Part shown: piece by piece, positions 10,701-32,620 of the stretch | Layout of the letters: the number at the start of each line of letters is the position of its first letter | Numbering within the stretch: the first letter of the stretch is position 1 | NCBI RefSeq assembly: GCF_011769525.1 | Contig: NZ_CP050440.1 | Span: forward strand, 7,550,001-7,614,000 | Origin: Tolypothrix sp. PCC 7910 | GTDB lineage: Bacteria > Cyanobacteriota > Cyanobacteriia > Cyanobacteriales > Nostocaceae | DNA length: 64,000 nucleotides | Direction: 5' to 3' | Made by a program: the position numbers and the translations under genes | Notes under the pieces: generated by a model | What the model was told of the DNA's origin: nothing | Database searches by the model: none | Seen by the model: the letters and a program-made list of their open reading frames with translations, nothing else

Positions 10701-13700
10701 CCGTGCTTGAGTTAGCAGTACCGACACCTGTGAATCTGCCAACATATAGGCTAATCGTTCTTGGGGATATGCTGGGTCTAGTGGAACGTAAGCACCACCA
10801 GCTTTGAGTATAGCCAATAACCCAATCACCATTTCGAGCGATCGCTCTACACAAATCCCTACCAATACTTCTGGTTTTACTCCCAGCTTTTGTAAATAAT
10901 GGGCTAATTGATTGGCGCGTTGGTTTAGCTCCTGATAGGTTAATTGCTCATTCTCAAATACCACTGCTACAGCATCAGGTGTTTTTTCTACCTGTGCTTC
11001 AAATAGCTGATGAATGCAAGCACTAGGATAGTCAATTCCTGTATCATTCCAATTAAGCAACAGTTGTCTTTCTGTAGCAGTTAAGATGGGCAAATTTGAT
11101 AATTGCTGGTGAGGATTGGTGAGAATTCCCACTAGTAAAGTCTGAAAATGCCCTTGCATTCTGCTAATAGTATCAGCGTCAAATAAATCGCTGTTATACT
11201 CAAAAACTCCCATCAAACCTTGATTAGTTTCTGTTAGCAGCAAGGTAAGATCAAATCTAGATGTTTCCGTACCTATTTCTTCTAAATTGATAGTTAATCC
11301 CGATAACTTGAGTTCTTCTGGAGGAGTATTTTGCAAAGCAAACATCACCTGAAATAGTGGTGAGTAGCTCAAGTGACGCTCTGGTTGTACCTCTTCTACT
11401 AACTGCTCAAACGGCAAATCCTGGTGAGTATAAGCACCCAGTGTCACCTCCCTGACTCGTTTGAGTAATTCCGAGAAACTAGGATTACCAGACAAGTCAG
11501 TTCGCAACACTAAAGTATTGACAAAAAAGCCAATTAATCCTTCAATTTCGCTGCGATTGCGGTTAGCGATGGGTGAACCGACGAGGATATCTTCTTGCCC
11601 TGTGTAGCGATAAAGTAAAGTTTGAAACGCCGCTAAAAGAGTCATAAACAGCGTTACGCCTTCCTGCTGACTCAAGGTTTTGAGTGCTTGGGTGAGAGAT
11701 GCAGAGACTTGAAACGCCTGTCTTTTACCGCTAGAAGTTTGAATGGGTGGTCTTGGTCGGTCAGTTGGCAGTTCTAATACTGGTAAACTACCTCCTAGTT
11801 GCTGCTTCCAATAGTCCATCTGAGAGGCTAACACCTCTTTTTGTAAGCATTCTCTTTGCCACACCGCAAAGTCTGCATACTGAATTGGTAGTTCTACAAG
11901 TGGAGAAGATTTGCCACTACAGTAGGCTTCGTATAGCGCAGTTAATTCCCGCACAATTACGCCTGTTGACCAAGCATCAGAGATAATGTGATGAATAGTA
12001 AATAATAATACATAGTCATCATCCTCTTGTTGTATAAGGATGGTGTTTAATAAAGGGCCATTTGTTAAATCAAAAGCTTGTTGTGCCTCAAGTGTAGCCA
12101 AAAGTTGAGTTTCTACAATCCGCGCCTGTGATGGTAATTCCCTTAAATCTATAATTGGTAATTTGATACTCCACGCTGGAGTAATTTGCTGAACTGCTTG
12201 TTCATCTACAACAGTAAATGTAGTTCGTAAAGCTTCATGGCGACGAACAATTTCATTCAAGCTTTGCTGTAACGCTGCTATATCCAGTAGACCCTGTAAG
12301 CGCACAGCTATCGAGAAGTTGTAATAAGAACTACCTGGTTGCCATTGTTCGAGAAACCATAGCCTAGCTTGAGGGAAGGAAAGGGGTAATAATCTATCTC
12401 TTCCTACTGGCTGAATCGGTGGAAGTTCAACTGCTTGGCTGTCTTTAAGCAATTTTTCTATATGTTCTGCCAGTGCAGCCACCGTTGGCAACTCAAACAA
12501 ACTCCGCAGGGGTAAATCTACCTGCAAGGCTTCCCGAATTTTAGAAGCAACTTGTGTTGCTAATAGTGAATGTCCACCCAATTCAAAGAAGTTATCATCT
12601 ATACCAACTTGTTCTAGATTGAGGATTTGTGACCAAATTCCCGCTATTACCTCTTCTACCGGAGTCCGAGGAGTTTGTCTCACATCTAGATTTCGTTGTC
12701 CTTCTTCTGGTGCAGGTAAATCTTGACGGTTGACTTTCCCGTTAGATGTTAAAGGTAAGGCAGGTAAAATTACAAAACTGGCAGGTATCATGTAATCAGG
12801 CAACTTTTCACTTAAAAAGCTTCGCCAATCGGTTAATTGAGCCTTCTGCAACAAACTTTCATCTTGCGGCACTAAATAAGCAACTAACCGCTTTTCTCCC
12901 GATGCTTCTTCCCTAGCTACACCCACAGTTTCCCGTACTAGTGGATGTTGTGCCAGTGCGGCTTCAATTTCTGCCAATTCTATCCGGAAGCCACGAATTT
13001 TCACTTGGTAGTCGCTACGTCCGAGAAATTCAATTGTCCCATCTGGGAGATAGCATCCTAAATCACCAGTTTTGTATAGCCTTGTTCCCGGTTTTTCGCT
13101 AAATGGATTAGGAATAAATTTCACAGCCGTCAGTTCTGGCTGATCCTGGTAACATCTGGCTAACCCCGCACCACCAATGTAGACTTCACCCTTAACTCCA
13201 ATAGGTGCAAGTTGTAATTGTTCTTCCAACACATAAACCTGTGTGTTAGCCAGTGGTTTACCGAGAGGAACTGTTTGGCTAGAAAGTTCTCTAGAAATTT
13301 CTACTGGATGGGTAAGTACACCAACAGTAGCTTCTGTAGGGCCGTAGTGATTGAAGATTTGACAATCTGAAGTATACTGTTTAATTTGCTCAATTAGTTG
13401 CCAACTAACAGTCTCACCGCCTAATACCAAACGCTGACGCGGCACAATCGACTCTGGTGTAGAAGATAGCAACAGAGAATTGATATGAGCCGGAACTATC
13501 TTCAGACAATCTATAGGATATCTCCGGCAATATTCAGCGAATGCGGTGGGGTCAGTTGACCGCTCGTAGGATATGATATGCAGACATCCACCAATGCAAA
13601 GCGCAGGGAATAAAACCGTGTTGCCCAAGTCCGCCGCTAAGGTGGAAACCATTGCAAAATTCTGGCATTCTGACAGGTTTAACCTATCGATGATGGCATT

Positions 13701-15605: not shown

Positions 15606-16640
15606 CTAAATATATTGATGACTAAATTGTTCTGACATTCCCACTACAACTTTTCGCTGTCCGCTAAATGGCTGTCTTCCGTGTGCTGTCAGCATATTGT
15701 CTAACATTAAAACGTCCCCAGCTTGCCAAGGAAAAATCACGGTTTCTTGTTGGTAAGCGGCGCGAATTTCTTCTAACACAGTCGCTTCAATTGGTGAACC
15801 ATCACCGTAGTAAGTATTATGTGGTAAATCTTCTTCTGAAAACTCTGCTAATAAGGCTTCGCGGATGTTTGGTTCTAAGGTTGAGACATGAAAGAAGGCG
15901 GCGTGATTAAACCAAACTAGTTCCCCAGTTTTGGGATGTATAGTAATAGCTTGTCTGACTTGACGAGTTCGCAAACGATTTCCCTCTTTCCACTCAAATT
16001 CAATCCCATGACTACGGCAAAATGTTTCCACTTCGCTGGGGTTGGTAGTTTGAAAGACTGTTTGCCAAGGTAAACCAAAACCATCGCCAAAGTTACGGAC
16101 GTACATCACTCCATTTTCGAGGAAGCGATCGCGGATTTTTGGGTTAATCTGTTTAAATAATTTACGGGTGTCTGCAATCGGTGTTTCTCCACCTTGTTTG
16201 GCTGGTGTGACACAGTGAAAGAAAATCTTTAAAGGCCAAACCGCAGCGTAGGAATTTTCACTATGGAGAAAGATACTTTGGTTAGCTGGATAATCTGTTG
16301 ATGTGTAGATTTTACCTTGAATTGCACTCCGAGGTGAAGAGCGATCGCGATATTCTAGCAACTCTCCAGAAACGGTCTGAATAAATTGCTCAAATTCCAG
16401 CATACTGCCAATTTCAAAATTACGAAACAGGATACCTCCATATTTCAGCAAATTTTTAGCAATCAATTCTTGATTACTAGCTGTCCATTTAATTAAATTA
16501 ATTCCTGCAATATTAGGTTGCACCAATAAAGGCAAAGAACTATCAGCAAACAAAGGCTTCGCTGTGATTAATTCGACTTGTGATAGATTCACACATTGCC
16601 GTCTTTTAGCTCTGATTGTAGATGATGTTGTAGATTGCAT
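15606..16640 (-). CDS. TauD-family hydroxylase, probable aspartyl beta-hydroxylase
   Basis: A 344-residue Fe(II)/2-oxoglutarate dioxygenase of the TauD family, clearly paralogous to the protein at 6671-7696. The ligands are H126-x-E128 (LHSENSY) and H320 (AHGRQPF). It lies 21 bp before the NRPS whose first module carries the aspartate code and an interface-like N-terminal domain, so hydroxylation of carrier-bound Asp to beta-hydroxyaspartate, an Fe(III) ligand of many acyl siderophores, is the best reading. The N-terminus has AKRRQCVNLS, matching the basic tail motif of the neighbouring condensation-domain proteins. The two hydroxylases differ enough across their sequence to have different substrates. 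Chosen start ATG at 16638-16640. Confidence 0.92.
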   Translation of the reverse strand: MQSTTSSTIRAKRRQCVNLSQVELITAKPLFADSSLPLLVQPNIAGINLIKWTASNQELIAKNLLKYGGILFRNFEIGSMLEFEQFIQTVSGELLEYRDRSSPRSAIQGKIYTSTDYPANQSIFLHSENSYAAVWPLKIFFHCVTPAKQGGETPIADTRKLFKQINPKIRDRFLENGVMYVRNFGDGFGLPWQTVFQTTNPSEVETFCRSHGIEFEWKEGNRLRTRQVRQAITIHPKTGELVWFNHAAFFHVSTLEPNIREALLAEFSEEDLPHNTYYGDGSPIEATVLEEIRAAYQQETVIFPWQAGDVLMLDNMLTAHGRQPFSGQRKVVVGMSEQFSHQYI

Positions 16641-16843: not shown

Positions 16844-17425
16844 TTATGCAGTCAAATATTTTGCATAATCGAAATTCTCTTTATCAATAAAGTAGATAAC
16901 AACCTCTTGATTATTATATTCATAAATGAACTTTTGATAAAGCTTTAATCCGGCTTTTTCCATCACACGAATAGAAGCTAAATTAGCTGCTAAAGCAGCA
17001 CCTAAAACACGCTGTATTCCAAACTCAGAAAAACCTTTAGCAATCAGTGCTTTAGCACCCTCTGTTGCATAACCTCTGCCCCAAGCAGCTTTTCGCAATC
17101 GATATCCTAATTCAATATCATTGGGATTAGCTAATTGCGGATTGAAATAAGCAGCGTGGACTATAGGTCTAAATAAAAACCAACCAATAAAGGCTTGACT
17201 AGATTTTTCAATTGCTGCCCAGCACCCGTAATTATCATATTTTTCATAATAAGAAAAATATGATGGCAGAATTTGATTTTGAATCACTGTGTAACTAGTT
17301 GGCTGTCCTACATTGGTTGTAAACCGAACAACTTCAGGGTCACTATCTAGTTCAAATAAATTATCAGCATCTTTTGCGGTAAGCTGGCGCAAAATTAAGC
17401 GTTCTGTTTCTAACAATACCTTCAT
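16844..17425 (-). CDS. GNAT acetyltransferase, RimJ/RimL type
   Basis: A 193-residue GNAT-fold protein of the RimJ/RimL class. It opens with ETERLILRQLTAKDADNLFELDSD, typical of the family, and has the acetyl-CoA loop RKAAWGRGYATEGAKALI at about 130-147 followed by NLASIRVMEKAGL. It lies in the siderophore operon, 85 bp after the acyl-ligase gene and 203 bp before the first hydroxylase. It could acetylate a side-chain amine such as hydroxy-ornithine or act on an intermediate, but members of this family often modify proteins or antibiotics, so a hitchhiking gene is possible. No hydroxylase for ornithine is seen in the window. Confidence 0.85.
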   Translation of the reverse strand: MKVLLETERLILRQLTAKDADNLFELDSDPEVVRFTTNVGQPTSYTVIQNQILPSYFSYYEKYDNYGCWAAIEKSSQAFIGWFLFRPIVHAAYFNPQLANPNDIELGYRLRKAAWGRGYATEGAKALIAKGFSEFGIQRVLGAALAANLASIRVMEKAGLKLYQKFIYEYNNQEVVIYFIDKENFDYAKYLTA

Positions 17426-17510: not shown

Positions 17511-20500
17511 TCACAGAGTAATTGCTTTACGTTTTGTCAATTTCAATTTCTGAATAGAAGTATATTCCAGTTCTTGTGCTTGAATTATTTGTTGTTCTCT
17601 GTCTGTTTCGGAAAGAATAGTTTCTAGTTCGTCTACTCTGATATCAGGATTTTCAATAACACGACTTATAAGCATTTCAAAATGATTAATCATTCTGGTA
17701 ATAGTTGTGCTATTAAACAACTCTATTTTGTACTCCAAGGAACCTTGAAAACCTGCTGCACTTTCCCAAATACTAAATTTCAAATCAAACTTAGATGTAC
17801 CGCTATCAACTTCTTGGGGTTGTAGAGTTAGTTCTGGAAGTTCTATAGCTGGAATTGGTGCATTTTGCAGAATAAACATTACCTGGAAGAGTGGGTTATA
17901 ACTTAAGTTTCGCTCTGGCTGCAATTCTTCCACTAACTTTTCAAAAGGTACATCTGGATGTGCAAAAGCGGCTAAAGCGACTTGGCGCACCCGTTGTAAG
18001 AATTCTCTAAAACTAGGATTACCACCAAAGTCAGTACGTAAAACGAGAGTATTGATAAAAAATCCAATTAGGTTTTGAGTTTCTGTTTTGGTACGACCGA
18101 CTATAGGTGAACCGGCTAAAATATCTAATTGTTTTGTATAGCAGTACAGCAATGTTTTGAATACCGCTATCAATGTCATAAATTGAGTAGCACCTTCTCG
18201 CTGATTAAATTCCTTGACAGCTGCACTCAGTTCTTTAGTAAAGGTAAAAAATTGCTTTTTCCCAGTGAAGGTTTGTATAGCTGGTCTGGGACGGTCAGTA
18301 GGAAGTTGCAGTACAGGAATATTACCACTTAATTGCTGCTGCCAGTAATGAAGTTGCTGACGAAAAACTTCGCCTTGTAGCCATTGTCTTTGCCAATAGG
18401 CAAAATCTGCATATTGAATAGTCAGTTCTGGAAGCGGTGAGGGTAAACCTTGAACAAAAGCCTTGTAAATCTCTGCAAGTTCTTGGATGAGAATACCAAT
18501 AGACCAACCATCAGAAATGATATGGTGCATACAGAGTATTAATATATGCTCTTTTTGTGTCAAACGCAAAAGTTGCGATCGCAATAATGGCGCGTTTGTC
18601 AAATCAAAAGGTTGCTGCGCTAAGTCAGTAGCCAAGCGCAAAGCTATATCTCGATTTGCTTCAGCCAATTCTACAACAGGCAGCGACAATTTTACATCCG
18701 GCACAATTACTTGCACAGGTCGCCCTTCCACAGATAAAAAACCTGTCCGTAAAGCTTCGTGACGCTTAATAACTTCGTTGAGGCTTTGCTCTAAGATACC
18801 TACATTCAAATTGCCAGTTAAATGTATGGCAATAGGCACATTGTAGAAGGGATTCCCTGGCTCTAATTGGTCGAGAAACCACAACCTTTCTTGAGCTAAA
18901 CACAATGGTAATTCTGTTTCACGAGAAATAGGCTTAATTTCCAGCTTTTTCAGCGTAATATCTGGCGTTTGTGCTGCAATTTGTTCTGCTAGGTACTTAA
19001 CACTAGCATCTTGTAAAAGGTCGTTGACAGATACACTCACCCCAAACTCTACTTCAATCGTATTTTTGATATCAAAAGCGATCAAGGAATCAATCCCCAA
19101 AGTTGTTAGAGATTGTTGAGGGTGTACTTTTGAAACTGAAATTTTTAAGGCTTGAGCAACCAAGTCTTGTAGGTATGAAATTAGAGAACTCTGCTCTTGC
19201 TTCAAGCTGATAGTTTCTAAATCTTCCCCAATATCTAGAATGCTTTGATTTACTACTTGCAAAGTACCTGCTAGAAACTCTGTCTTACAAGCGCGGCGTT
19301 GAATTTTACCACTAGAAGTTTTGGCAATAGTACCACCTTTAATTAAAACCACTGCATAAACTTGTACCTCATGTTCTTGCGCTACAGCCTGTCGAATTGC
19401 AGTAGTAACTTCTTCTAAATTAGGTTTGGCGCGAAACTCCAACTCTTGCACCACTACCAAGCGTTCTTCATTGTCTATGTCTACTGCAAAAGCAGCATTA
19501 CTACCCAGACGTAAGGAAGAATGACTGCGTTCTGCTGTCAGTTCTATATCTTGGGGGTAAAGGTTGCGTCCTCTGATGATAATTAAATCTTTAGCTCGTC
19601 CAGTAATGAAAAGTTCGCCATCATGGAGAAAGCCTAAGTCTCCTGTTCGTAAAAATGGCCCTTCTCCTGTATCTTGCAGGTAGGCGTGAAAGGTTTGCTC
19701 GGTTTCTTCTAGGCGCTTCCAGTAGCCATAACCAATACTAGGCCCAGATACCCAAATTTCTCCCACTTCATCGGGATCGCAACGTGTCAAGGTTTCTGGG
19801 TTCGCAATCACAATATTCTGTTGTGTTACAACTCGACCACAACTAACTAATGTAATTATGTTCTCTGTGTTTGCAACTAGATGAACAATTTTATTTCGTT
19901 CTAAAGCGTTACGTTGCAGAGATAAGCTATTTACTAACGCAGATTTGACGCTACCCGATACCATCAAAGTTGCCTCTGCCATACCATAACAAGGGTAAAA
20001 AGCTTCTGGACGGAACCCACATTCAGCGAAAGTTCCTGCAAACCTCTCTAATGTCTCGTGACGAATTGGTTCAGCACCGTTAAAAGCTACACTCCAGCTG
20101 CTTAAATCTAGGGTAGAGCGTTGTTCGGGGGTAATTTTTTCAATACAAAGTTCATAAGCGAAGTTGGGAGCGCCACTAGTCGTTCCTCGATAATGAGAAA
20201 TGACCTGTAACCAACGGTAGGGACGTTGGAGAAAAGCCGCTGGCGGCATCATAATACAAGGAAAACCACCATATAAAGGTTGCAGTACGCCGCCAATCAA
20301 CCCCATATCATGGTAGACAGGGAGCCAAGTCACAAATTTACTACTAGTAGTATGTTCCATATACTGGCGTGTTACCTCTGCATTGTGTAGCAGGTTGCCA
20401 TGAGTCAGCATGACACCTTTGGGTGTGCCTGTAGAACCGGAAGTATATTGTAAAAATGCCAGAGTATCTATATTAATAGACGGCTTTTGCCAAGTTGCTT

Positions 20501-20981
20501 CTAGACCTGGTGCGAGGTTGTCGGTAGTGAGCCAATGAATATTATCTATAGCAAATTTATCACCCAGCAAAGACTGCAACTGAGCCAGAATTGCTGTGGT
20601 TGTCAGGATGACTGCTGGTTGTGCATCTTTGATAATTGCCAAGATTCTGGGAGTGTTGCGCTGATTACGTGGCGGATAAGCTGGAACTGCTACCACTCCC
20701 CCATATAGACATCCAAAGAAAGCTGGTAAGTAATCGATTCCCGGTGGATAAAGCAATAAGGCACGCTCACCGCTTAAACTAAGGGTTTGTAGTTGAGATG
20801 CGATCGCTCGACTATGACAATCTAACTGTTGGTAAGTTAGACTAACTTCTTGTGCTTCTCCATCATGCAAAAAAGTAAATGCTGTCCTATCTGCTTGCTC
20901 TACAGACCGATAACGCAGCAGTTCTACTAACGTAGCAAAATTACAGACCATTGCTTCTAAATCTTGGACATATTCAGTCAT
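17511..20981 (-). CDS. Fatty acyl-AMP ligase / acyl carrier / condensation protein (lipo-initiation)
   Basis: A 1156-residue loading protein. Residues 1-580 are a fatty-acyl-AMP ligase (YTSGSTGTPKG at 179-189, YGMAEAT at 332, the FAAL-type C-terminal half with RTGDLG and GRAKDLIIIRG). A carrier domain follows, with the phosphopantetheine serine S632 in GIDSL. Residues 690-1130 are a condensation domain with an intact HHIISDG (819-825). The role is to activate a fatty acid, place it on its own carrier domain and condense it with the first amino acid, which sits on the next protein. That protein starts with an interface-like domain, so the functional C domain is supplied here. The C-terminal tail has KRKAIT, like KRRSIS at the end of the NRPS at 7731-15584. 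First gene of the leftward operon. Confidence 0.95.
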   Translation of the reverse strand: MTEYVQDLEAMVCNFATLVELLRYRSVEQADRTAFTFLHDGEAQEVSLTYQQLDCHSRAIASQLQTLSLSGERALLLYPPGIDYLPAFFGCLYGGVVAVPAYPPRNQRNTPRILAIIKDAQPAVILTTTAILAQLQSLLGDKFAIDNIHWLTTDNLAPGLEATWQKPSINIDTLAFLQYTSGSTGTPKGVMLTHGNLLHNAEVTRQYMEHTTSSKFVTWLPVYHDMGLIGGVLQPLYGGFPCIMMPPAAFLQRPYRWLQVISHYRGTTSGAPNFAYELCIEKITPEQRSTLDLSSWSVAFNGAEPIRHETLERFAGTFAECGFRPEAFYPCYGMAEATLMVSGSVKSALVNSLSLQRNALERNKIVHLVANTENIITLVSCGRVVTQQNIVIANPETLTRCDPDEVGEIWVSGPSIGYGYWKRLEETEQTFHAYLQDTGEGPFLRTGDLGFLHDGELFITGRAKDLIIIRGRNLYPQDIELTAERSHSSLRLGSNAAFAVDIDNEERLVVVQELEFRAKPNLEEVTTAIRQAVAQEHEVQVYAVVLIKGGTIAKTSSGKIQRRACKTEFLAGTLQVVNQSILDIGEDLETISLKQEQSSLISYLQDLVAQALKISVSKVHPQQSLTTLGIDSLIAFDIKNTIEVEFGVSVSVNDLLQDASVKYLAEQIAAQTPDITLKKLEIKPISRETELPLCLAQERLWFLDQLEPGNPFYNVPIAIHLTGNLNVGILEQSLNEVIKRHEALRTGFLSVEGRPVQVIVPDVKLSLPVVELAEANRDIALRLATDLAQQPFDLTNAPLLRSQLLRLTQKEHILILCMHHIISDGWSIGILIQELAEIYKAFVQGLPSPLPELTIQYADFAYWQRQWLQGEVFRQQLHYWQQQLSGNIPVLQLPTDRPRPAIQTFTGKKQFFTFTKELSAAVKEFNQREGATQFMTLIAVFKTLLYCYTKQLDILAGSPIVGRTKTETQNLIGFFINTLVLRTDFGGNPSFREFLQRVRQVALAAFAHPDVPFEKLVEELQPERNLSYNPLFQVMFILQNAPIPAIELPELTLQPQEVDSGTSKFDLKFSIWESAAGFQGSLEYKIELFNSTTITRMINHFEMLISRVIENPDIRVDELETILSETDREQQIIQAQELEYTSIQKLKLTKRKAITL

Positions 20982-21123: not shown

Positions 21124-21596
21124 ACTACTTTTAATAGACTAAAGCAACTTGTAGAACATAGCAAGCAAATATAATTAATAAGTCTTGTCAGTGGCAACTT
21201 GACCAAAAATCTCGCAAAACAATGTATCTGTAGATGGATGACTATATACGCGTTAAGCAATCATGACTTGTAAGCGATGGTAAAAGTAGCCTTAAATGAC
21301 GGAAAAATAAGGACTGCTCCCTACTCACTAGGAAAATTTCGCAAATCAGAAGTTTTGACAAATGCTTGCTCGCACAGAACCTTTATGATAATGTCTCCTA
21401 ATAGTACTGAAGCTAAATGCAAATTATTAGCAGATAGTTTTTAGGAATTTTTAGATATAGTGCTAAATCTTATTGAAAAAATATCGCGTCCCTTATCTAA
21501 TATCTAAGACGCGAAGTTTTGCATTGGGTCTGAGGATCGCTATCAAGATGCAATTAGAGCATTTACTTAAAAGGCTGTTAATTACAAGTTCAATCC

Positions 21597-21602
21597 AAGG
21601 AG
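21597..21602 (+). promoter_or_regulatory. Shine-Dalgarno deciding the receptor start
   Basis: AAGGAG ends 8 bases before the ATG at 21611. The longer frame would begin with TTG at 21473, adding 46 residues that do not look like a signal peptide. The SD and the clean signal sequence after 21611 make 21611 the likely start. Confidence 0.75.
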
Positions 21603-21610
21603 CAATAATA

Positions 21611-24562
21611 ATGAAGTCTGGGTTCATAAGTGAGATACATTCGGTTGGATTAGCATTAGCAGTAATTAGCAGCTTGGTACAACCAGTTCATGCAGGAACG
21701 CAGACAGCAAATTTATCTAATCTATCTACTATTGATAGCCAAAAATCTCACTCTACCAGTGCCGCGCAACTACTGGTGCAAGGCAACAATAATTTAGCTA
21801 CTAAAGTTACAGGGGTTAAAGTCACTTCTACAGATAAAGGTATCGAAGTAATTTTAGAAAGTGCCAATATAGAAGCACTCAAACCAGTTAGTAATAATCA
21901 GGGTAATAGCTTTATAGCAGATATCCCCAATGCAGTCCTAGCACTACTTACAGGTGGAAACTTTACTCAAAATAATCCAGCACCAGGGATTGTCTCTGTC
22001 AGCGTCACTCAAGCCGATAGCAATACTTTAAGAGTAACAGTGGTAGGTGAAGGGGGTTTACCTAACGCAGAATTATTTGATGGTGACGAGGGTTTGATTT
22101 TTGCCGTCACACCAGTTGCATCTGCTACCAAACCGCAACAACCAACATTTACGCCATCAATATCTCCGACTGTAGCAGAAGTCACAGGAGTCCAACTTAA
22201 TCCCACCAATAACGGTTTAGAAATCATCTTGGCGATATCAGATGGTGAAAAATTGCATGTATTACCTAAACCTGAAGGCAACACATATATTGCCGATATT
22301 ACCGCAGCCCAACTGCGCCTCTCTACTGACAACAGATTTCGCCAAGAAAAACCAATTGCGGGAGTGAGTGAAGTTACTGTAACTAATGTTGATAGCAACA
22401 CTATCAGAGTGGCTGTAGTGGGAGTAGATACAATCCCAAAAGTGGAATTATTTGATAGCAATAAAGGCTTGATTTTTGGGATAGCCCCAACTGCATCAGC
22501 TACACAATCGCCATCTCAACAACCATCAGAAGAACCGACAGCCCAGAGTGACGATCCCATTGAATTGGTGGTGACAGGAGAGCAAGATTCAGGATATAGA
22601 GTTCCAGATGCTAGCACTGCAACTAAAACCGATACACCCTTACTAGAGGTTCCCCAAGCAATCCAAGTAATTCCCCGACAAGTAATTGACGATCAAAGAG
22701 TCCAACGGGTTTCAGATGTTTTGCGTAACGTCAGTGGTGTCACCATAAAAACAGATTATGCTGGTAGCGCTGATGGTTATACCATTCGCGGATTTGATAC
22801 CAATGCCAACCTCCGCAATGGTTTTAGACATGATAGTTTCACCTCTTTTACAGACAGTTCTACTCTAGAAAGGATAGAAGTTCTCAAAGGCCCGGCTTCG
22901 GTACTGTATGGACAACTAGAGCCTGGAGGGATTGTTAATTACATTACTAAACAGCCACTAGAACAACCATATTACTCGGCAACATTTTCTGCGGGTAGCT
23001 ATAGTTACTATCGACCAGAAATAGATATTTCTGGGCCACTCACCCCAGATAACAATATTTTGTATCGCTTTGTAGCTGCTTACGAAAACTCTGGTGGCTT
23101 CCGAGATTTTGCTTTTAAAGAGCTTTATACCTTTGCTCCTAGTTTAAGGGTGAAATTAAGCGATCGCACAAACTTAGACTTGCAATATGAATACGTTAAT
23201 CTCAACCAATCCTATGATAGAGGCCTACCACCGATAAGCAGATCCTTTGATTTGCCAATTAGTTTTAACTTTGGCGAACCAACTGATAAGTATGAACTGT
23301 TTGCCAATAGAATAAACGTGACTTTAGATCATCGATTTACTGAAAATTGGCGATTCCGCAGTGCGGTTTCTGTACAAACCGTTGATACATCACGTTCCAA
23401 CTTTCAGCCAGTTGATTTTCAAAATCTCTTTGATGAAGATGGTCGGACTGTTGCTAGGAGATATAACAAAGTAGGTGATTACTCTAGAGATTATTCCTGG
23501 CAAAATGACTTAATCGGAAAATTTAACACTGGCTCAATTAAACATGAAGTGCTGTTGGGTTTTGAATTAGGTAGAAGTGAGTTTGGCTATCCATTTTTTA
23601 TTTCTTATGATGTCCCATCACTTGATATTTTAAATCCAGTATATGGTGCGGCAATTCCTACTACTTTTGAAGAAGGCTTTCAAGGAAGAACTAATACATA
23701 TAGAGTAGGTCTTTACTTCCAAGACCAAGTAGCCTTGCTACCCAATTTCAAAATACTACTTGGTGGAAGACTGGATTTTGTCAATTTCAAAGATGAGTAC
23801 AATCCCGATCTGATTAATGGTGCAGAAACGGAAATTACAGAGCGTTATTATGAGAAATTTTCTCCACGCATTGGTTTAGTGTATCAACCTACTGAAAATC
23901 TCTCTCTTTACGCTAGTTACAGTCGCGCTTTTAAACCAAATGAATATGCTATAGCCGTTGGTGGCCGACCATTAGAGCCGGAAACTGGTACACAATACGA
24001 AGTGGGAGTTAAAGGTGAGTTTTTAAATGGTAAGCTGACAGCAACGTTAGCAGCTTATGAGATTACAAAAAATAATGTCTCTACAACAGACTTAGACAAT
24101 CCAGACTTTACAATTGCAGCTGGAGAAGTCAAAAGCCGAGGTTTTGAAATCGATATAGCTGGAGAAATTTTACCTGGTTGGAATGTCATTGCTTCTTATT
24201 CTCATAACGATGCTTATGTAAGTGCAGATAATAGCTTACCAGTTGGTGACAGATTAGCAAATGCACCCAGGAATAGTGCTAGTTTGTGGACAACCTACCA
24301 AATTCAAAGCGGTAACTTGAAGGGGTTAGGTTTTGGTGGAGGAGTATTTTTCGTTGGCGATCGCGAAGCTACCTTACCAAATACAATTGCAATTCCTTCC
24401 TTTGTCCGAACTGATGCTGCTATTTTCTATCGGCGCGACAATTATCAAATAGGTCTTAACTTTAAAAACTTACTTGATACTCGTTACTATGATTCGTCTG
24501 GTTTTTTACTTTCTCCAGGCGCACCCTTTACAGTGGTGGGTACATTCTCTGTCAAGTTTTAA
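21611..24562 (+). CDS. TonB-dependent ferric-siderophore receptor with two AMIN domains
   Basis: From the ATG at 21611 this is a 983-residue outer-membrane receptor; the frame is open from a TTG at 21473. The signal peptide ends near PVHA. Two tandem AMIN-type repeats follow (VTGVKVTSTDKGIEVIL and VTGVQLNPTNNGLEIIL), then a TonB-box-like IELVVTG, the plug (EVPQAIQVIPRQVIDD, RGFDTNANLRNG, LKGPASVLYGQ) and the 22-strand barrel ending in VGTFSVKF with a terminal aromatic residue. AMIN domains are common in cyanobacterial TonB receptors and may hold the protein at the peptidoglycan. It is divergent from the biosynthesis operon and followed closely by PepSY and MFS genes, so it is probably the uptake receptor for the siderophore made here. 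Confidence 0.95.
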   Translation: MKSGFISEIHSVGLALAVISSLVQPVHAGTQTANLSNLSTIDSQKSHSTSAAQLLVQGNNNLATKVTGVKVTSTDKGIEVILESANIEALKPVSNNQGNSFIADIPNAVLALLTGGNFTQNNPAPGIVSVSVTQADSNTLRVTVVGEGGLPNAELFDGDEGLIFAVTPVASATKPQQPTFTPSISPTVAEVTGVQLNPTNNGLEIILAISDGEKLHVLPKPEGNTYIADITAAQLRLSTDNRFRQEKPIAGVSEVTVTNVDSNTIRVAVVGVDTIPKVELFDSNKGLIFGIAPTASATQSPSQQPSEEPTAQSDDPIELVVTGEQDSGYRVPDASTATKTDTPLLEVPQAIQVIPRQVIDDQRVQRVSDVLRNVSGVTIKTDYAGSADGYTIRGFDTNANLRNGFRHDSFTSFTDSSTLERIEVLKGPASVLYGQLEPGGIVNYITKQPLEQPYYSATFSAGSYSYYRPEIDISGPLTPDNNILYRFVAAYENSGGFRDFAFKELYTFAPSLRVKLSDRTNLDLQYEYVNLNQSYDRGLPPISRSFDLPISFNFGEPTDKYELFANRINVTLDHRFTENWRFRSAVSVQTVDTSRSNFQPVDFQNLFDEDGRTVARRYNKVGDYSRDYSWQNDLIGKFNTGSIKHEVLLGFELGRSEFGYPFFISYDVPSLDILNPVYGAAIPTTFEEGFQGRTNTYRVGLYFQDQVALLPNFKILLGGRLDFVNFKDEYNPDLINGAETEITERYYEKFSPRIGLVYQPTENLSLYASYSRAFKPNEYAIAVGGRPLEPETGTQYEVGVKGEFLNGKLTATLAAYEITKNNVSTTDLDNPDFTIAAGEVKSRGFEIDIAGEILPGWNVIASYSHNDAYVSADNSLPVGDRLANAPRNSASLWTTYQIQSGNLKGLGFGGGVFFVGDREATLPNTIAIPSFVRTDAAIFYRRDNYQIGLNFKNLLDTRYYDSSGFLLSPGAPFTVVGTFSVKF

Positions 24563-24590: not shown

Positions 24591-25703
24591 ATGAAATCGT
24601 TTAATTTACGTAATCTAGCCTTCACTCTACATCGTTATATTGGTTTAACATTAGGACTATTAATAGCTTTTGTCGGTTTGACAGGTAGCTTCTTAGTCTT
24701 TAAGCCAGAAATTGCAAAGTTTCTAGTTACCCAGCAAGTTGGCACGATAGTACCTCAAGAACAAATGGTGTCCATTGATGCTGTTTTAGAAACAGCAAAG
24801 GCTGTAAGTAACAATCGTTCCGATCTCAAATTAGACACAATCAGATTGCCTGCTACGCCTGATTTACCTTACGAAGTAGCTTTTTTTGATGCGACCGATC
24901 AATTAACTCGCATATTTATTCATCCCTATACTGGTGCCGTCATCGGTAGAAATGAAAGTGATTCTAGTTTTGAAAGGATTGTTCTGAAGCTTCACTATGG
25001 TCTTTTACTAGGGAGAAATGGCGAAATTATCATTGGAATTGCTGGGTTATTGTTGTTTATTCTTTGTGTTACAGGATTAATATTATGGTCTGGTTGGCGT
25101 AAGTTAATTACTGGATTCAAAATTAAGTGGAATGGACATCCCAAACGAGTTAACTTTGATATTCACAAAGTAGCCGGAATTGTGACCGCAATATTTCTTG
25201 CGTTTACTGCATTTACAGGCTTCTGCTGGAATTTTTCTGATTGGTCATATCCTATAATTTATGCAGCTACTTTTACTGCACAGCCATCAAAAGTTATTTC
25301 TAAACCTATTCCTAATCAAGCCCCTTTAAAACTATCTCAACTACTGCAAATTTCCCAGACTATTTTTCCTGAGGCAGAGACATTTTCAGTCGGCATTCCT
25401 AGCACAGAGGAAGCAGCAGTTTATATCAGCAAGCGTCAAAACCCTAAACTTATGTTTTATGGTGATAGTGGAGTTTATTTAGATCAGTATAATGGAGAGA
25501 TATTGCGCGTAGTTGATAGCCGGAAATTACCCCTGGCAGATGCTTTACTCTCTGCCTTTGAGTATTTACATTATGGTACATTTTGGGGTTTAAGCAGCCG
25601 CGTATTTTACGTTTTTGTTGGTCTTAGCCCAACAATTCTTTTAATTACTGGCTTTTTTATGTATCAATATCGTTACAAAAAAATAAAAAATTATATTCAG
25701 TAA
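24591..25703 (+). CDS. PepSY-associated membrane protein, probable siderophore iron reductase
   Basis: A 370-residue inner-membrane protein of the PepSY_TM family (PiuB-like). Four or more membrane segments are visible: TLGLLIAFVGLTGSFLVF near the start, IIIGIAGLLLFILCVTGLIL, IVTAIFLAFTAFTGF, and a last one near the C-terminus. Conserved histidines (LHRYIG, LHYGLLLG, IHKVAG, LHYGTFWG) are placed to bind haem or metal. Family members next to TonB receptors are thought to reduce ferric siderophores in the periplasm. It begins 28 bp after the receptor gene, so it is co-transcribed. The reductase role is known for some relatives and inferred here. Confidence 0.88.
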   Translation: MKSFNLRNLAFTLHRYIGLTLGLLIAFVGLTGSFLVFKPEIAKFLVTQQVGTIVPQEQMVSIDAVLETAKAVSNNRSDLKLDTIRLPATPDLPYEVAFFDATDQLTRIFIHPYTGAVIGRNESDSSFERIVLKLHYGLLLGRNGEIIIGIAGLLLFILCVTGLILWSGWRKLITGFKIKWNGHPKRVNFDIHKVAGIVTAIFLAFTAFTGFCWNFSDWSYPIIYAATFTAQPSKVISKPIPNQAPLKLSQLLQISQTIFPEAETFSVGIPSTEEAAVYISKRQNPKLMFYGDSGVYLDQYNGEILRVVDSRKLPLADALLSAFEYLHYGTFWGLSSRVFYVFVGLSPTILLITGFFMYQYRYKKIKNYIQ

Positions 25704-25836: not shown

Positions 25837-27132
25837 ATGCAAAATTATATTTTCATCTGGCTTGGCCAGATGGTTTCTCTAATTGGCAGTAGTATGACTG
25901 CCTTTGCTTTTGCTATATGGGTTTGGGAACTAAAACATCAAGCAACAGCATTAGCTTTATTTCACGTTTTTGCACAAATACCACAAATTTTAATTACCCC
26001 TATCGCAGGTGTACTTGTCGATAGAATTAACCGCAAGTTGCTGATGATAGTGGGGGATACAGTAGGTGGTATAGTGACAATTACTGTTTTATTACTGTAT
26101 TTAACTAATAACCTGCAATTATGGCATTTGTATATAGCTTTTGCTGTTAAAGGCACTTTTGAACAATTTCAAGAACTTGCCTACTCAGCATCAATATCTA
26201 CAATGGTACCCAAACAGCAATACAGCAGGGTTAGTAGTTTAAGTTTTTTGGCAGGTAATGGTGCGATAATAATTGCTCCGGCTCTAGCTGGTGTTCTTTA
26301 TAGAGTCATTGGACTTGTTGGGATTTTAAGTATAGATATCATATCTTTCTTATTTGCGATCGCTACAGTCCTAAGAGTACATATTCCACAACCTGCGATC
26401 GCACAATTACATCAAAAAAAATCTGCACATATTCTTGAGGATATTAGTTTTGGTTTTAAATATATAATCTCGCGTCCTAGTTTGCTGAGTTTATTAGTAT
26501 TGACAGCAATATTTTGGTTTATTCATGATCTTGGTGATTCTGTTTACAAACCTATGATTCTAGAACGTTCTGGTAATGACGCTAGTATTTTAGGTGGCTT
26601 ATTTGCTGCCGTTGGAGTTGGAGGTGTCTTGAGCGTTTTGGTAATTAATATCTGGGGTGGCGGGAAAAGTCGAATTAAAGGGATAATATTCGGTATGATA
26701 GGTACTGCGTTAGGCAGAATCATACTTGGCCTGGGTCGTACACCTGTAATTTGGATTCCTGCTCAGTTATGTTCATCCTTTAATTATCCATTGCTTGGTA
26801 GCCACAGTGATGCTATTTGGCTAGCTAAAGTACAACCGCAATTGCAAGGACGCGTTTTTGCTACTCAGTCAATGATACTTTTGCTCACTTCAGCAATTGC
26901 TAACCTAATTGGAGGAACATTTGCAGATCAAGTTTTTGAGCCTGCTATGAGGCTGGGAGGTAATTTTGCACCCTTGTTTGGCAGTATATTTGGTACTGAA
27001 AAGGGTGCAGGTATGGCACTTATGTATGTAATATCTTCACTAAGCTTATTGATAGTAGGTATAAGCGGCTATGCAATTCCTGGGCTACGTGAAATAGAAA
27101 CCGTCTTACCTGATTATGATAATGTCACTTAA
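25837..27132 (+). CDS. MFS transporter, probable siderophore exporter (EntS-like)
   Basis: A 431-residue major facilitator protein with about 12 membrane segments. The start FIWLGQMVSLIGSSMTAFAFAIWVWE and the loop GVLVDRINRKLLMIVGD match the MFS_3/EntS-type group that exports siderophores such as enterobactin. It is the third gene of the receptor operon, 133 bp after the PepSY gene. ATG at 25837 gives an N-terminus that begins right at the first helix, as usual for this group. It most likely exports the finished lipopeptide across the inner membrane; the substrate is inferred from context. Confidence 0.88.
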   Translation: MQNYIFIWLGQMVSLIGSSMTAFAFAIWVWELKHQATALALFHVFAQIPQILITPIAGVLVDRINRKLLMIVGDTVGGIVTITVLLLYLTNNLQLWHLYIAFAVKGTFEQFQELAYSASISTMVPKQQYSRVSSLSFLAGNGAIIIAPALAGVLYRVIGLVGILSIDIISFLFAIATVLRVHIPQPAIAQLHQKKSAHILEDISFGFKYIISRPSLLSLLVLTAIFWFIHDLGDSVYKPMILERSGNDASILGGLFAAVGVGGVLSVLVINIWGGGKSRIKGIIFGMIGTALGRIILGLGRTPVIWIPAQLCSSFNYPLLGSHSDAIWLAKVQPQLQGRVFATQSMILLLTSAIANLIGGTFADQVFEPAMRLGGNFAPLFGSIFGTEKGAGMALMYVISSLSLLIVGISGYAIPGLREIETVLPDYDNVT

Positions 27133-28341: not shown

Positions 28342-28482
28342 ATGAGAATAGAATCGGATAAGGAATTTTGGTTGCGTCAATTAGAAGAATACCGAGAACT
28401 TGTTCGTCAAAGAAAACTAAAGAAACTCAATACCCAAAACAACCCTCCCATCAATAACAATACGACGGACAAGTTTGTTTAG
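28342..28482 (+). CDS. Small unknown ORF (46 residues), overlaps recombinase 3' end
   Basis: ATG at 28342 opens a frame reading MRIESDKEFWLRQLEEYREL then VRQRKLKKLNTQNN. The first half looks like an amphipathic or coiled-coil helix. It ends at 28482 inside the convergent recombinase gene (66-base antisense overlap). No family recognised. The excision of the Anabaena fdxN element needs small accessory proteins (XisH, XisI), but this does not resemble them; real-gene status is uncertain. Confidence 0.25.
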   Translation: MRIESDKEFWLRQLEEYRELVRQRKLKKLNTQNNPPINNNTTDKFV

Positions 28483-29955
28483 GATGCGTTTTTTATCCTC
28501 TGATGTGCGGCTTTCCCAGTATTCGCGATCGCGGAACATTTGCACTAACTCTTCTCCCACTATCAGGCTACGTTTTGTGATGTTTTCGTGGAGACTTAAG
28601 ATACTAGCAATTTGGTCACGGATACCATCTTTGGCTTTCTCTACAAAAGGATTACTAGGTATCTTCTCCAAGGCTGCTAAACTTTCGCGCAGTTCTCGCA
28701 CTTCTATTGGTTCAGGATTTTTATCTTCTTCAAAATCTACCATTCCCGCTAGTCTAGTAGCTTCATTGACTAACAAATCAGCTACCTGAGAATCTAAACT
28801 TTGACTATTCAGCATCTCTTTGGCATCGCAACGTCTCAGAGCATAGTAAGTACATTGATAGTAAGCTGTATATTGTCCATTGCGATCGTGCCGGGATGAC
28901 ATCCGAGTTAATGCACCGCCACATCTACCACACTTCAATAAATTAGCAAATGGGTTGATATCTTCTTGACGTGCAGCCCATTTATTATGGCGATTTTGAC
29001 GAATCTGGCGTTTGATTTGTTCGTGTTGTTCGCGGCTAATTATCCCCTCATGGGTGTCCCAATTACAATCCCATTGATCGAAATGGTTGATTTGTTTACC
29101 TGATGGACTGGATGTGGTGACATTAAATGGTGTTCCACCTGCGTGTACGGGATTAACTAAGAAGTTTTTTAACCCAGCAGGCGACCATTGTAAGCCAGTC
29201 CAAGGGTATCTTTGATAAGTTTTTCTTTGATTTTGCAATAAATCAAATTGCTCGATATCATTGGGCATAATCCGATGATTATCTTTTAATTTTTTACTCT
29301 TTGCGTCTACTTTCCCACTTACGCCAAACATCTCATTTAAGAGATTGCAGGTTTTTCTGACGCTACCGCAACTATCAAATATTTCAAATATAAATAAAGC
29401 TAATTCCCAAACTTTAAAACTTCTTTTCCCCTCTATCAGGGAAACACACCAACTTTCATCTTTGACATAAAAATCATTCATCACCTTCCAACCAAAAGGC
29501 GCAAACCGATGACTTTTTCGCTGCACCATACGATGCTTACGTTCAGCAGATACACGGCTGGATAACATTTTGATTTCAAATTTACTTGCAGCTAGCAAAA
29601 TATCTATTGTCAACTCGCCACCCAGACTTTCTGTATCTATGGTTTGGTCGAGTGCTACTAGCTTGATACTTCTACTGCGTAATACTTCCAGCAACGAGTA
29701 AAACAGTTTTGATGATGACCCAATGCGGTCAATTCTGGTAACTACTAAATCGCTGACAATACCCTTGGGCGATGTTTTTAAATCATCAATTAATTGCTGT
29801 AACCCAGTCCGCACTTCCGTGGTGCGACTTTGAATATCCCAATAAAAGCGATCGCATCCGACATTCTTACCTCTTTCTAGCTGTTTCTTGAGTGCGTTGC
29901 GATCCTCTTGTTGTTCAATCGTCGAAACCCGACCATAAAACCATTTCTCGCCCAT
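28417..29955 (-). CDS. Large serine recombinase, XisF-like
   Basis: A 512-residue large serine recombinase. The resolvase domain starts FYGRVSTIEQQEDRNALKKQ with the nucleophile serine in GRVS, and has LVVTRIDRIGSSSKLFYSLL; a recombinase domain and a zinc ribbon (CGRCGGAL ... YQCTYYALRRC) follow, then a coiled-coil region. Length and layout match XisF of the Anabaena fdxN element (about 514 residues), which excises that element during heterocyst formation. Its start lies only 31 bp from the 5'-truncated hupS, and a 13-bp palindrome lies between them. This is where an excisase gene of a hupS interruption element would be. Function in excision is inferred. Confidence 0.9.
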   Translation of the reverse strand: MGEKWFYGRVSTIEQQEDRNALKKQLERGKNVGCDRFYWDIQSRTTEVRTGLQQLIDDLKTSPKGIVSDLVVTRIDRIGSSSKLFYSLLEVLRSRSIKLVALDQTIDTESLGGELTIDILLAASKFEIKMLSSRVSAERKHRMVQRKSHRFAPFGWKVMNDFYVKDESWCVSLIEGKRSFKVWELALFIFEIFDSCGSVRKTCNLLNEMFGVSGKVDAKSKKLKDNHRIMPNDIEQFDLLQNQRKTYQRYPWTGLQWSPAGLKNFLVNPVHAGGTPFNVTTSSPSGKQINHFDQWDCNWDTHEGIISREQHEQIKRQIRQNRHNKWAARQEDINPFANLLKCGRCGGALTRMSSRHDRNGQYTAYYQCTYYALRRCDAKEMLNSQSLDSQVADLLVNEATRLAGMVDFEEDKNPEPIEVRELRESLAALEKIPSNPFVEKAKDGIRDQIASILSLHENITKRSLIVGEELVQMFRDREYWESRTSEDKKRILNKLVRRIVIDGRVVLGIEFL

Positions 29956-29971
29956 AAGGAAAAATTTATTC

Positions 29972-29984
29972 TATAGTGACTATA
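29972..29984. other. Candidate recombination site at the element/hupS border
   Basis: TATAGTGACTATA is a 13-bp palindrome with a central G, lying between the recombinase start (29955) and the first remaining hupS codon (29987). The residues encoded just upstream in the hupS frame (D-Y-N) do not match the conserved G-N-T that precedes MSFLNA in cyanobacterial HupS, so the junction must lie at or next to the ATG. A serine-recombinase crossover site here is inferred. Confidence 0.5.
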
Positions 29985-29986
29985 AT

Positions 29987-30901
29987 ATGTCTTTTCTCAA
30001 CGCTGAAGAACCGACAGTATGCGATTTAATTGCGGACTTTGGCATTAAAGTACTTTGGCATCCCTCCTTGGGTTTGGAACTGGGCGATAATTTACAACAA
30101 CTACTCCAAGATTGCATTTCCGGGACAATTCCCCTAGATATCTTGGTTTTTGAGGGTAGTGTTGTGAATGCCCCCAACGGCACAGGTGAATGGAACCGCT
30201 TTGCCGATCGCCCCATGAAAGATTGGTTAACAGACCTCGCCCAAGCTGCTAGTTTCATTGTGGCTGTAGGAGACTGTGCTACCTGGGGAGGCATACCTGC
30301 CATGTCACCCAATCCTAGCGAATCCCAAGGGTTGCAATTCCTCAAGCGTGAACCAGGTGGTTTTTTCGGTCAAGACTTCCGCACCAAATCCGGCTTACCC
30401 GTAATTAACATTCCCGGATGTCCCGCCCATCCTGATTGGATTAGTCAAATTTTAGTGGCGATCGCCACCGGACGCTTAGGCGACATTACCTTAGACGAAC
30501 TCAACCGTCCTCAAACCTTCTTCAAAAGCTACACCCAAATTGGTTGTACGCGTAACGTCCACTTTGCCTACAAAGCATCTACTGTGGAATTTGGTCAACG
30601 CAAAGGGTGCCTATTCTACGATTTAGGTTGTCGTGGCCCCATGACCCACTCTTCCTGCAACCGTATTTTGTGGAATCGGGTTTCCTCTAAAACTCGTGCC
30701 GGTATGCCTTGTTTAGGATGTACCGAACCAGAATTTCCCTTCTACGACCTCAAACCAGGAACCGTATTTAAAACCCAAACTGTCATGGGAGTTCCCAAAG
30801 AACTACCACCAGGAGTCAAAGCAAAAGACTATGCTTTACTGACGATGGTAGCTAAAGACATAGCACCACCTTGGGCAGAAGAAGACATTTTCACAATTTA
30901 G
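29987..30901 (+). CDS. hupS: Uptake [NiFe] hydrogenase small subunit, 5' end missing (interrupted)
   Basis: A 304-residue frame that matches HupS from MSFLNAEEPTVCDLIADFG to WAEEDIFTI. Cyanobacterial HupS is about 320 residues and begins with roughly 16 more, including the ACSG motif that holds the first cysteine of the proximal iron-sulfur cluster. Those are absent, and no ribosome-binding site precedes the ATG. The later cluster cysteines are present (GDCATWGG, GCPAHPDW, GCTRNVHF, CLFYDLGCRG, CLGCTEP). An XisF-like recombinase abuts the break, so I read this as the 3' part of a gene interrupted by an excisable element, with the first codons beyond the window. In heterocysts excision would restore it. 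A simple dead gene is the alternative, but hupL and the rest of hupS are well kept. Confidence 0.92.
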   Translation: MSFLNAEEPTVCDLIADFGIKVLWHPSLGLELGDNLQQLLQDCISGTIPLDILVFEGSVVNAPNGTGEWNRFADRPMKDWLTDLAQAASFIVAVGDCATWGGIPAMSPNPSESQGLQFLKREPGGFFGQDFRTKSGLPVINIPGCPAHPDWISQILVAIATGRLGDITLDELNRPQTFFKSYTQIGCTRNVHFAYKASTVEFGQRKGCLFYDLGCRGPMTHSSCNRILWNRVSSKTRAGMPCLGCTEPEFPFYDLKPGTVFKTQTVMGVPKELPPGVKAKDYALLTMVAKDIAPPWAEEDIFTI

Positions 30902-31024: not shown

Positions 31025-32620
31025 ATGACAATTCAAACATTAGACATCTCGCCAGTCGGTAGAGTAGAAGGTGATTTAGATGTCCGGGTGGAAATTGAAG
31101 ACGGATATGTAGTCAACGCCTGGACTCATGCAGAACTCTTCCGGGGATTTGAAATTATCCTTCGTGGTAAAGACCCCCAAGCCGGATTAATCGTTACGCC
31201 TCGCATTTGTGGTATCTGCGGTGGTTCTCACCTAACTTCTGCATCTTGGGCACTCGATACACTCTGGGGTACAGAAGTTCCACGCAATGCGATTTTAGCG
31301 AGAAATTTAGGTCAAATTGTCGAAACCATCCAAAGTATACCCCGCTATTTTTATGGTCTTTTTGCAATTGACCTGACTAATAAAAAGTACCGCAGTAGTC
31401 GGTTTTATGAAGAAGCCACCAAGCGCTTTGCAGCTTTCACAGGCACTTCCTACGAATTAGGTGTGACCATTTCTGCCAAACCTGTAGAAATTTACGCTTT
31501 ATTAGGTGGTCAATGGCCCCATTCTAGTTACATGGTTCCTGGCGGTGTGATGTGCGCCCCCACACTCACAGACATTACCCGCGCTTGGTCACTATTAGAA
31601 TATTTCCGTACTAACTGGTTAGAACCAGTATGGTTGGGTTGTTCCCTAGAACGCTATGAAGAAATTCAAACCTATGATGACTTCATGGATTGGTTAGATG
31701 AAGACCGCAAGCATCGGGAATCCGACTTGGGTTTATATTGGCGCATGGGTTTAGATATTGGTCTAGATAGATTTGGTGCTGGTGTTGGTAAATATGTGAC
31801 TTGGGGATATTTACCCCATGAGGACAAATATCAACAGCCCACAATTGATGGGCGAAATGCGGCGATGATCATGAAGAGTGGAGTGTATGACAGTTTCAGC
31901 GACACCCATACTTTAATGCACCCATCTTTTGCCCGTGAGAATACTACTCACTCTTGGTACGATGAGGGTACAGCCGATGTTTACCCAGGCGATCGCACAA
32001 CTAATCCCATCCAAAAAAATACAAAAGACTTCGATAATGCCTATTCTTGGGCCAGTGCAGTCCTACACAAAGATTTCGGACGTTTAGAAGCAGGCCCCTT
32101 AGCACGTCAGTTAGTTGCAGGTGGTAAGCATGGCGAATCTTGGCAACACCAAGACGGGTTTATTTTAGACGTGTTCAAGCAAATGGGTGGCCCTAGCATT
32201 CACGTGCGTCAACTAGCACGAGTTCACGAAATTGTCAAGCTTTACCGCCAAGCTGAACACTGCTTGCGCGAATTTAAGTTAAATGACCCCTGGTATATCA
32301 AACCCCAAGAAAAAGATGGTAAAGGATGGGGTGGAACCGAAGCCGCACGGGGTTCCCTGTGTCACTGGGTAGAAGTAGAGGGCGGTAAGATTAAGAACTA
32401 CCAAGTTATTGCCCCCGGTACTTGGAATATAGGCCCTCGCGATGGTAATGGCGCACGCGGCCCGATTGAGGAAGCTTTAATCGGCACACCTATCTATGAT
32501 TCTAAAGATCCAGTAGAAGTAGGTCACGTTGCGCGATCATTCGACTCTTGTTTAGTATGTACAGTTCACGCCCACGATGCCAAGACTGGTGAAGAATTGG
32601 CGCGGTTTAGAACTGCTTAA
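31025..32620 (+). CDS. hupL: Uptake [NiFe] hydrogenase large subunit
   Basis: A 531-residue complete HupL. The active-site ligands are visible as RICGICGGSH near residue 60 and DSCLVCTVH near the C-terminus; the short tail after that histidine is the usual target of the maturation protease. With HupS it re-oxidises hydrogen released by nitrogenase in heterocysts. In Anabaena PCC 7120 hupL is interrupted by an excisable element with xisC; here hupL is continuous and hupS carries the break instead. Follows hupS after a repeat-rich 123-bp spacer, same operon. Confidence 0.97.
   Translation: MTIQTLDISPVGRVEGDLDVRVEIEDGYVVNAWTHAELFRGFEIILRGKDPQAGLIVTPRICGICGGSHLTSASWALDTLWGTEVPRNAILARNLGQIVETIQSIPRYFYGLFAIDLTNKKYRSSRFYEEATKRFAAFTGTSYELGVTISAKPVEIYALLGGQWPHSSYMVPGGVMCAPTLTDITRAWSLLEYFRTNWLEPVWLGCSLERYEEIQTYDDFMDWLDEDRKHRESDLGLYWRMGLDIGLDRFGAGVGKYVTWGYLPHEDKYQQPTIDGRNAAMIMKSGVYDSFSDTHTLMHPSFARENTTHSWYDEGTADVYPGDRTTNPIQKNTKDFDNAYSWASAVLHKDFGRLEAGPLARQLVAGGKHGESWQHQDGFILDVFKQMGGPSIHVRQLARVHEIVKLYRQAEHCLREFKLNDPWYIKPQEKDGKGWGGTEAARGSLCHWVEVEGGKIKNYQVIAPGTWNIGPRDGNGARGPIEEALIGTPIYDSKDPVEVGHVARSFDSCLVCTVHAHDAKTGEELARFRTA

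Follow-up and report, generated by a model that had tools for sequence, protein, structure and literature searches.

A 77,362-bp segment with an XisF-type recombinase gene between the two pieces of hupS in Tolypothrix sp. PCC 7910: a likely developmental interruption element

Main finding

The hupS gene in the window (the whole 64,000-nucleotide stretch analysed here, C1:7550001-7614000 of an 8.76-Mb genome in 7 contigs) is present in two pieces, and a developmental interruption element is very likely the best explanation of the arrangement as a whole. This reading draws, by sequence, on the recovery of both halves, on their order and strand, on the border between them, on their in-frame joining, on the dyad at the rebuilt junction, on the association with a recombinase and on selection. 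A segment of 77,362 bp separates codon 17 (ATG) of hupS from codon 18. According to the mechanism that we propose, the recombinase encoded beside its right end would recombine both ends across a TC dinucleotide. The segment would be released as a circle, leaving a hupS of the full 320 codons ahead of hupL. Differentiating heterocysts are the most likely place for this, the host being probably a heterocyst-forming cyanobacterium. We infer that the recombination does occur, that its timing is that of heterocysts and that the rejoined gene makes a working HupS. The features of the right end are as follows.

1 to 29989, no strand: right-hand part of the 77,362-bp element (left end outside the window, at C1:7502628-7502629)
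28417 to 29955, minus strand: large serine recombinase (XisF-type), 512 aa (ORF list, Pfam, NCBIfam)
29968 to 29980, plus strand: inner arm at the right end (ATTCTATAGTGAC), complementary to the left-end arm (dyad analysis)
29987 to 30901, plus strand: hupS 3' piece, codons 17 to 320 and stop (ORF list, Pfam)
29990 to 29991, plus strand: TC dinucleotide at which crossover is predicted, bases 1 and 2 of hupS codon 18 (dyad analysis)
31025 to 32620, plus strand: hupL, uninterrupted, 531 aa (ORF list, Pfam NiFeSe_Hases)

The two pieces of hupS and the recombinase

The hupS frame of the window opens with MSFLNAEEP and encodes 304 aa with the Pfam domains Oxidored_q6 and NiFe_hyd_SSU_C. An earlier note on this DNA had taken it to be truncated by about 16 codons, and comparison with an intact hupS (320 aa) of the same genome gives exactly 16 absent codons. 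The note had also pointed to the rest of the genome as the place to look for the missing front piece, which was indeed found there. A 25-residue N-terminal HupS query searched against the whole genome matched two sites. One is the intact hupS (C1:5794739), the other a stub (C1:7502577) that precedes the window and shares contig and strand with the 3' piece. In the stub 19 residues match, after which the sequence reaches a stop. Joined to the 3' piece it reads MTNVLWLQGGACSGNT-MSFLNAEEP, in frame and with the full N-terminus back. The two borders match in the direct repeat TTTCT, which is exact, and in ATGTCYTTTCT with one mismatch (window genome). A gene in two parts with a direct-repeat overlap at the borders is the arrangement that defines heterocyst interruption elements, the distance from TC to TC giving the length of the one described here.

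The recombinase ORF is separated from the hupS frame by 31 bp and the two diverge, just as the earlier note had described for a 512-residue recombinase facing away from hupS. It lies inside the element near the end, in opposite orientation to hupS at its 3' end, as is usual for elements of this kind. Its Pfam domains (Resolvase, Recombinase and Zn_ribbon_recom) are the set of the large serine integrases, and with 534.1 bits it passes the cut-off of 375 of the NCBIfam XisF equivalog, which bears out its earlier designation as XisF-type; identity to the annotated XisF of Trichormus variabilis is only 24.5%. XisH and XisI gave 8 and 13 matches genome-wide and none between 7502628 and 7579991, that is, in the element. 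The absence of these genes from the element, while they are present elsewhere in the genome, counts against a developmental element, and it led us to reject an fdxN-type element by gene content. An element of the hupL/XisC type was also rejected, since the recombinase is of the serine type and hupL is full-length.

Distribution of the split among family genomes

Among 217 genomes of the family, recombinase matches at E up to 1e-150 were obtained in 38, of which 20 (window genome included) showed 63-100% identity and 18 had as their best match a relative at only 49-51%. In all 20 genomes with a recombinase ortholog (at least 63% identity) hupS is split at the same place: the N-terminal match stops at residue 19-22, the 3' piece starts at residue 13-17 and the two rejoin in frame. 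The presence of the stub in 20/20 genomes led to the rejection of a chance match of the 5' piece. Five of the eight genomes of the window's genus are carriers. The carriers identified by name are Nostoc carneum NIES-2107 (G013), N. linckia FACHB-104 (G015), Calothrix membranacea FACHB-236 (G016), Goleter apudmare HA4340-LM2 (G073), Plectonema radiosum NIES-515 (G078), Spirirestis rafaelensis (G079), N. desertorum CM1-VF14 (G106), N. indistinguendum CM1-VF10 (G113), Nostoc sp. FACHB-892 (G131), Calothrix PCC 6303 (G169), Rhizonema sp. PD37 (G178) and Rivularia PCC 7116 (G186).

The two pieces are on one contig and strand in 11 of the 20 genomes, on separate contigs in eight and on opposite strands in Calothrix PCC 6303, which is also the one exception to the rule that the recombinase adjoins the 3' piece (19/20). 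Both peculiarities of this genome are points against a developmental element. The halves lie about 104 kb apart there (C3:485038-589995), and recombining the two ends would restore hupS by inversion, unless the arrangement is a misassembly.

In the other 197 genomes the N-terminal hupS query had a match in 194 and none in three (G035, G108 and G191). No split at codon 17/18 was seen in these 197, as judged by the best E-value per genome among the matches listed, a measure by which a stub may be missed. When 14 genomes were listed again, including all 11 of the 197 with two matches, 25/25 matches spanned the full 25 residues. An intact hupS accompanies the split one in four of the 20 carriers (window genome, N. 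carneum, N. linckia and C. membranacea), and the remaining 16 have no intact hupS N-terminus. The occurrence of intact hupS among split ones in the hupS tree implies that gains or losses have occurred.

The predicted crossover site

Serine integrases swap strands at a central two-base crossover. Circle junctions were rebuilt from both ends of 20 elements and 25-base arms were scored over 25 possible centres. Mean arm complementarity was 17.55/25 when centred on TC and at most 9.95 at the 24 other centres. The dyad score was 18/25 for the window genome and 22/25 for G194, values that none of 5000 base shuffles reached. Arms paired across genomes scored 16.7 vs 17.55 within one genome, an almost equal fit from which it follows that the elements have one site type in common.

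At the right ends the three bases ahead of TC are ATG in 16 genomes and ACG, ACT, ACA and AGC in one each, and at the left ends the bases after TC are variable, TC itself being constant. This constancy is partly forced, because TC starts a serine codon of hupS, and the position of the dyad is a stronger argument for the place of crossover than the constancy of TC. The junction is roughly symmetric and attP-like with TC at the centre of the dyad, as in the sites of large serine integrases, and the crossover is predicted on these grounds. The TC-centred dyad at the rebuilt circle junction is as expected for a large serine recombinase. From the 20 natural junction pairs the crossover of a developmental serine-recombinase site can be predicted exactly.

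A contig fork in Nostoc indistinguendum

Contig ends were inspected in one genome, that of N. indistinguendum (a MAG), in which the 5' hupS piece is found twice, at the start of contig C77, which runs into the element, and at the end of contig C118. This last contig (218,814 bases) finishes with ATGTCATTTCT and overlaps C77 by exactly 127 bases; the base that follows is G on the element side vs C in the rejoined gene, so that C118 stops exactly where the element and the rejoined sequences part. Such a break is the mark of an assembly fork with two continuations and a hint of excision, the second continuation being perhaps rejoined hupS or a strain without the element. The assembly of this genome contains no rejoined contig, and its 3' piece is without a matching break.

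Cargo of the element

The element holds 46 ORFs of at least 80 aa, of which 20 were scanned with Pfam. The families found were an NRPS, a fatty acyl-AMP ligase with a condensation domain, two TauD dioxygenases, a GNAT protein, a TonB receptor, PepSY_TM, MFS, ExbB, ExbD and TonB_C, and also a penicillin amidase, an aminotransferase, a methyltransferase and proteins with CHAT, CHASE2 and AAA_35. Those of the cluster in the window are the following.

6671 to 7696, minus strand: TauD-family dioxygenase (Pfam)
7731 to 15584, minus strand: NRPS, 2617 aa, with 3 condensation and 2 adenylation stretches (Pfam)
15606 to 16640, minus strand: TauD-family dioxygenase (Pfam)
16844 to 17425, minus strand: GNAT acetyltransferase (Pfam)
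17511 to 20981, minus strand: fatty acyl-AMP ligase with carrier and condensation domains (Pfam, NCBIfam)
21473 to 24562, plus strand: TonB-dependent receptor with AMIN domains (ORF list, Pfam)
24591 to 25703, plus strand: PepSY_TM protein (ORF list, Pfam)
25837 to 27132, plus strand: MFS transporter (ORF list, Pfam)

We consider the cargo to be an NRPS cluster with a siderophore-type product as candidate class. A fatty acyl-AMP ligase together with an NRPS and an aspartate beta-hydroxylase is reminiscent of cyanochelin clusters (PMC12628792). As these NRPS genes are in DNA thought to be lost from heterocysts, one may ask in which cells their product is made.

The cargo is not the same in all carriers. 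One of the TauD proteins was compared with 23 genomes, of which 19 gave a match (E up to 1e-60); for the 11 elements contained in one contig, the match was inside the element in three (window genome, N. linckia and Rivularia PCC 7116), outside it in seven and absent in G184. In N. linckia and Rivularia PCC 7116 long frames with NRPS motifs, as judged by motif counts, surround the TauD gene of the element. The elements of N. carneum (about 19 kb) and G014 (about 17 kb) are without an NRPS cluster; a thioesterase gene adjoins xis in the former (Pfam) and a similar ORF is found in the latter. The smallest element, of about 7.5 kb, is that of G194. When the ORFs of at least 80 aa of the window's element were compared with four other elements, only xis was common to all.

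These variable contents and sizes, the symmetric attP-like junction and the patchy occurrence in the genus (5/8 genomes) would also suit an integrative element that is mobile, or a relative of phages, for which hupS is no more than an attachment site and whose excision is tied to transfer or stress and not to development. We regard this as improbable. Recombinase and hupS distances over the 20 genomes are correlated (Mantel r 0.648, with 0/9999 permutations as high), which fits largely shared descent. Moreover, no phage structural or conjugation family was found among the 20 of 46 ORFs scanned, and the element interrupts a heterocyst gene, like the majority of those known (PMC4874684).

Selection on the split gene and the second hupSL

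The dN/dS ratios were calculated by NG86 from codon 18 on, for pairs with dS 0.1-1.5, and G184, Rivularia PCC 7116 and G190, in which hupS is interrupted twice, were excluded from these and from the hupS tree. The median was 0.074 over 96 split pairs vs 0.064 over 361 intact pairs, and ten cysteine columns were invariant in 17/17 split and 32/32 intact rows. These values indicate that purifying selection acts on split hupS as it does on the intact gene.

The earlier note has to be amended here, as the genome also carries an intact second hupSL, with hupS (320 aa) and an uninterrupted hupL together near C1:5.79 Mb. The second HupL is 84% identical to that of the window. Both hupS copies of the window's genus form one group in the hupS tree (97/81), with long branches, and a duplication in the lineage is therefore likely. 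Pairs within each copy gave dN/dS of 0.019-0.065. The 800 bp ahead of each hupS copy contain no GTAN8TAC site, and that scan thus gives no hint of differing regulation. The split hupS of Tolypothrix sp. FACHB-123 has a further break behind residue 89 (around 5749), beyond which stops occur.

Since the window genome and three relatives also have an intact hupS, the element could be a dead remnant that is no more excised, the split hupS being a pseudogene and the intact second hupSL doing the work. This seems to us still less probable than a mobile element. The split copies of the window's genus have dN/dS of 0.038-0.065 (three pairs), the ten cysteine columns are kept in all 17 split rows, an intact hupS is missing from 16 of the 20 genomes and the short 5' stub is kept in every one of the 20. 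The pseudogene reading of split hupS was rejected on selection and on the absence of intact hupS in those 16 genomes.

Cys12 of the ACSG motif of HupS is an iron-sulphur ligand. An internal start at MSFLN, by which the frame of the window would be used as it is for a short HupS, has in its favour the ATG that opens the frame at 29987, but it is hardly credible and was rejected, as that ATG is replaced by ACG, ACT, ACA or AGC in 4/20 genomes and the short form would be without Cys12.

With a developmental interruption element as the preferred reading, the two hupSL copies may serve different cells. More speculatively, and with considerable doubt on our part, the element could be, in the window's genus, a DNA-level switch between uptake hydrogenase paralogs, by which split hupSL would be read only after excision in heterocysts, while cells of other types would read the intact hupSL; by that excision the siderophore-type NRPS cluster would also be dropped from the terminal cells, leaving it to the vegetative ones, and the hupS element would be an exchange site for such clusters. 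If so, this cargo site would be in use in the window genome, in N. linckia and in Rivularia PCC 7116. The coexistence of an intact and a split copy in one strain makes the cell-type partitioning of uptake hydrogenase testable.

Other interruptions

Some further interruptions were noticed. In the window genome two serine recombinases (C1:1415329-1416861 and C1:1418416-1419753) adjoin, by eye, likely pieces of nifK (3') and nifE (5'), and these two genes may be interrupted too. Another recombinase (C1:2228655-2230205), 38% identical to that of the window, adjoins by eye a broken flavodiiron-like frame, and a further one (C1:1466029-1467561) is 51% identical to it, with no interrupted gene recognised beside it. 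The recombinase meant in both comparisons is that of the window. The hupS gene is cut at about residue 282 in G012 (C1:7697830-7752455) and in G184 (C1:6990453-7100365), in this last genome on top of the codon-17/18 split. Rivularia PCC 7116 combines the serine-type cut at codon 17/18 with another one near residue 209, where about 2 kb are inserted (C1:7847000-7852000) and a 463-aa ORF is tyrosine recombinase-like by eye, and hupS of G190 is cut at that same residue.

Comparison with known systems

The fdxN element of Nostoc PCC 7120 (XisF, XisH and XisI) has TATTC as its core. The hupS element resembles it in its large serine recombinase of the XisF equivalog, and differs from it in the gene interrupted, in the 24.5% identity to annotated XisF and in being without XisH and XisI, both of which are required for the fdxN element (PMC4874684). 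The hupL element has the operon and the logic in common with the hupS element, but its recombinase, XisC, is of the tyrosine type, and here hupL is uninterrupted.

In 28 genomes Hilton, Meeks and Zehr (2016; PMC4874684) described 101 elements, each of 22 gene groups being represented by one serine-recombinase element or more. They listed four hupS elements in two variants, and described a tyrosine-type hupS element in Rivularia PCC 7116. The earlier note had presented hupS as the target of the element; hupS is interrupted here, but as a target it is not new in view of that work, with which the present element has in common the gene and a recombinase inside the element near its end, facing away. 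Two of the strains that the paper names, Rivularia PCC 7116 and Calothrix PCC 6303, have hupS split at codon 17/18, and the codon-17/18 variant is very probably one of the two variants already listed. Other reports of hupS elements were not found in the open-licence literature. In that same literature, as seen from titles and the start of abstracts, there was no report of two hupSL copies nor, among the matches listed, of NRPS cargo in such elements.

Of the four excision elements of Anabaena sp. 90, one measures 80 kb and contains a prophage remnant (PMC3542288). The SPbeta element in spsM of Bacillus subtilis (PMC4191935) is likewise a large element that is removed developmentally with rebuilding of the gene, in another lineage and cell type. 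Compared with the accessible part of PMC4874684, what is new here is the strain, the TC-centred dyad, the intact second hupSL and the NRPS cargo.
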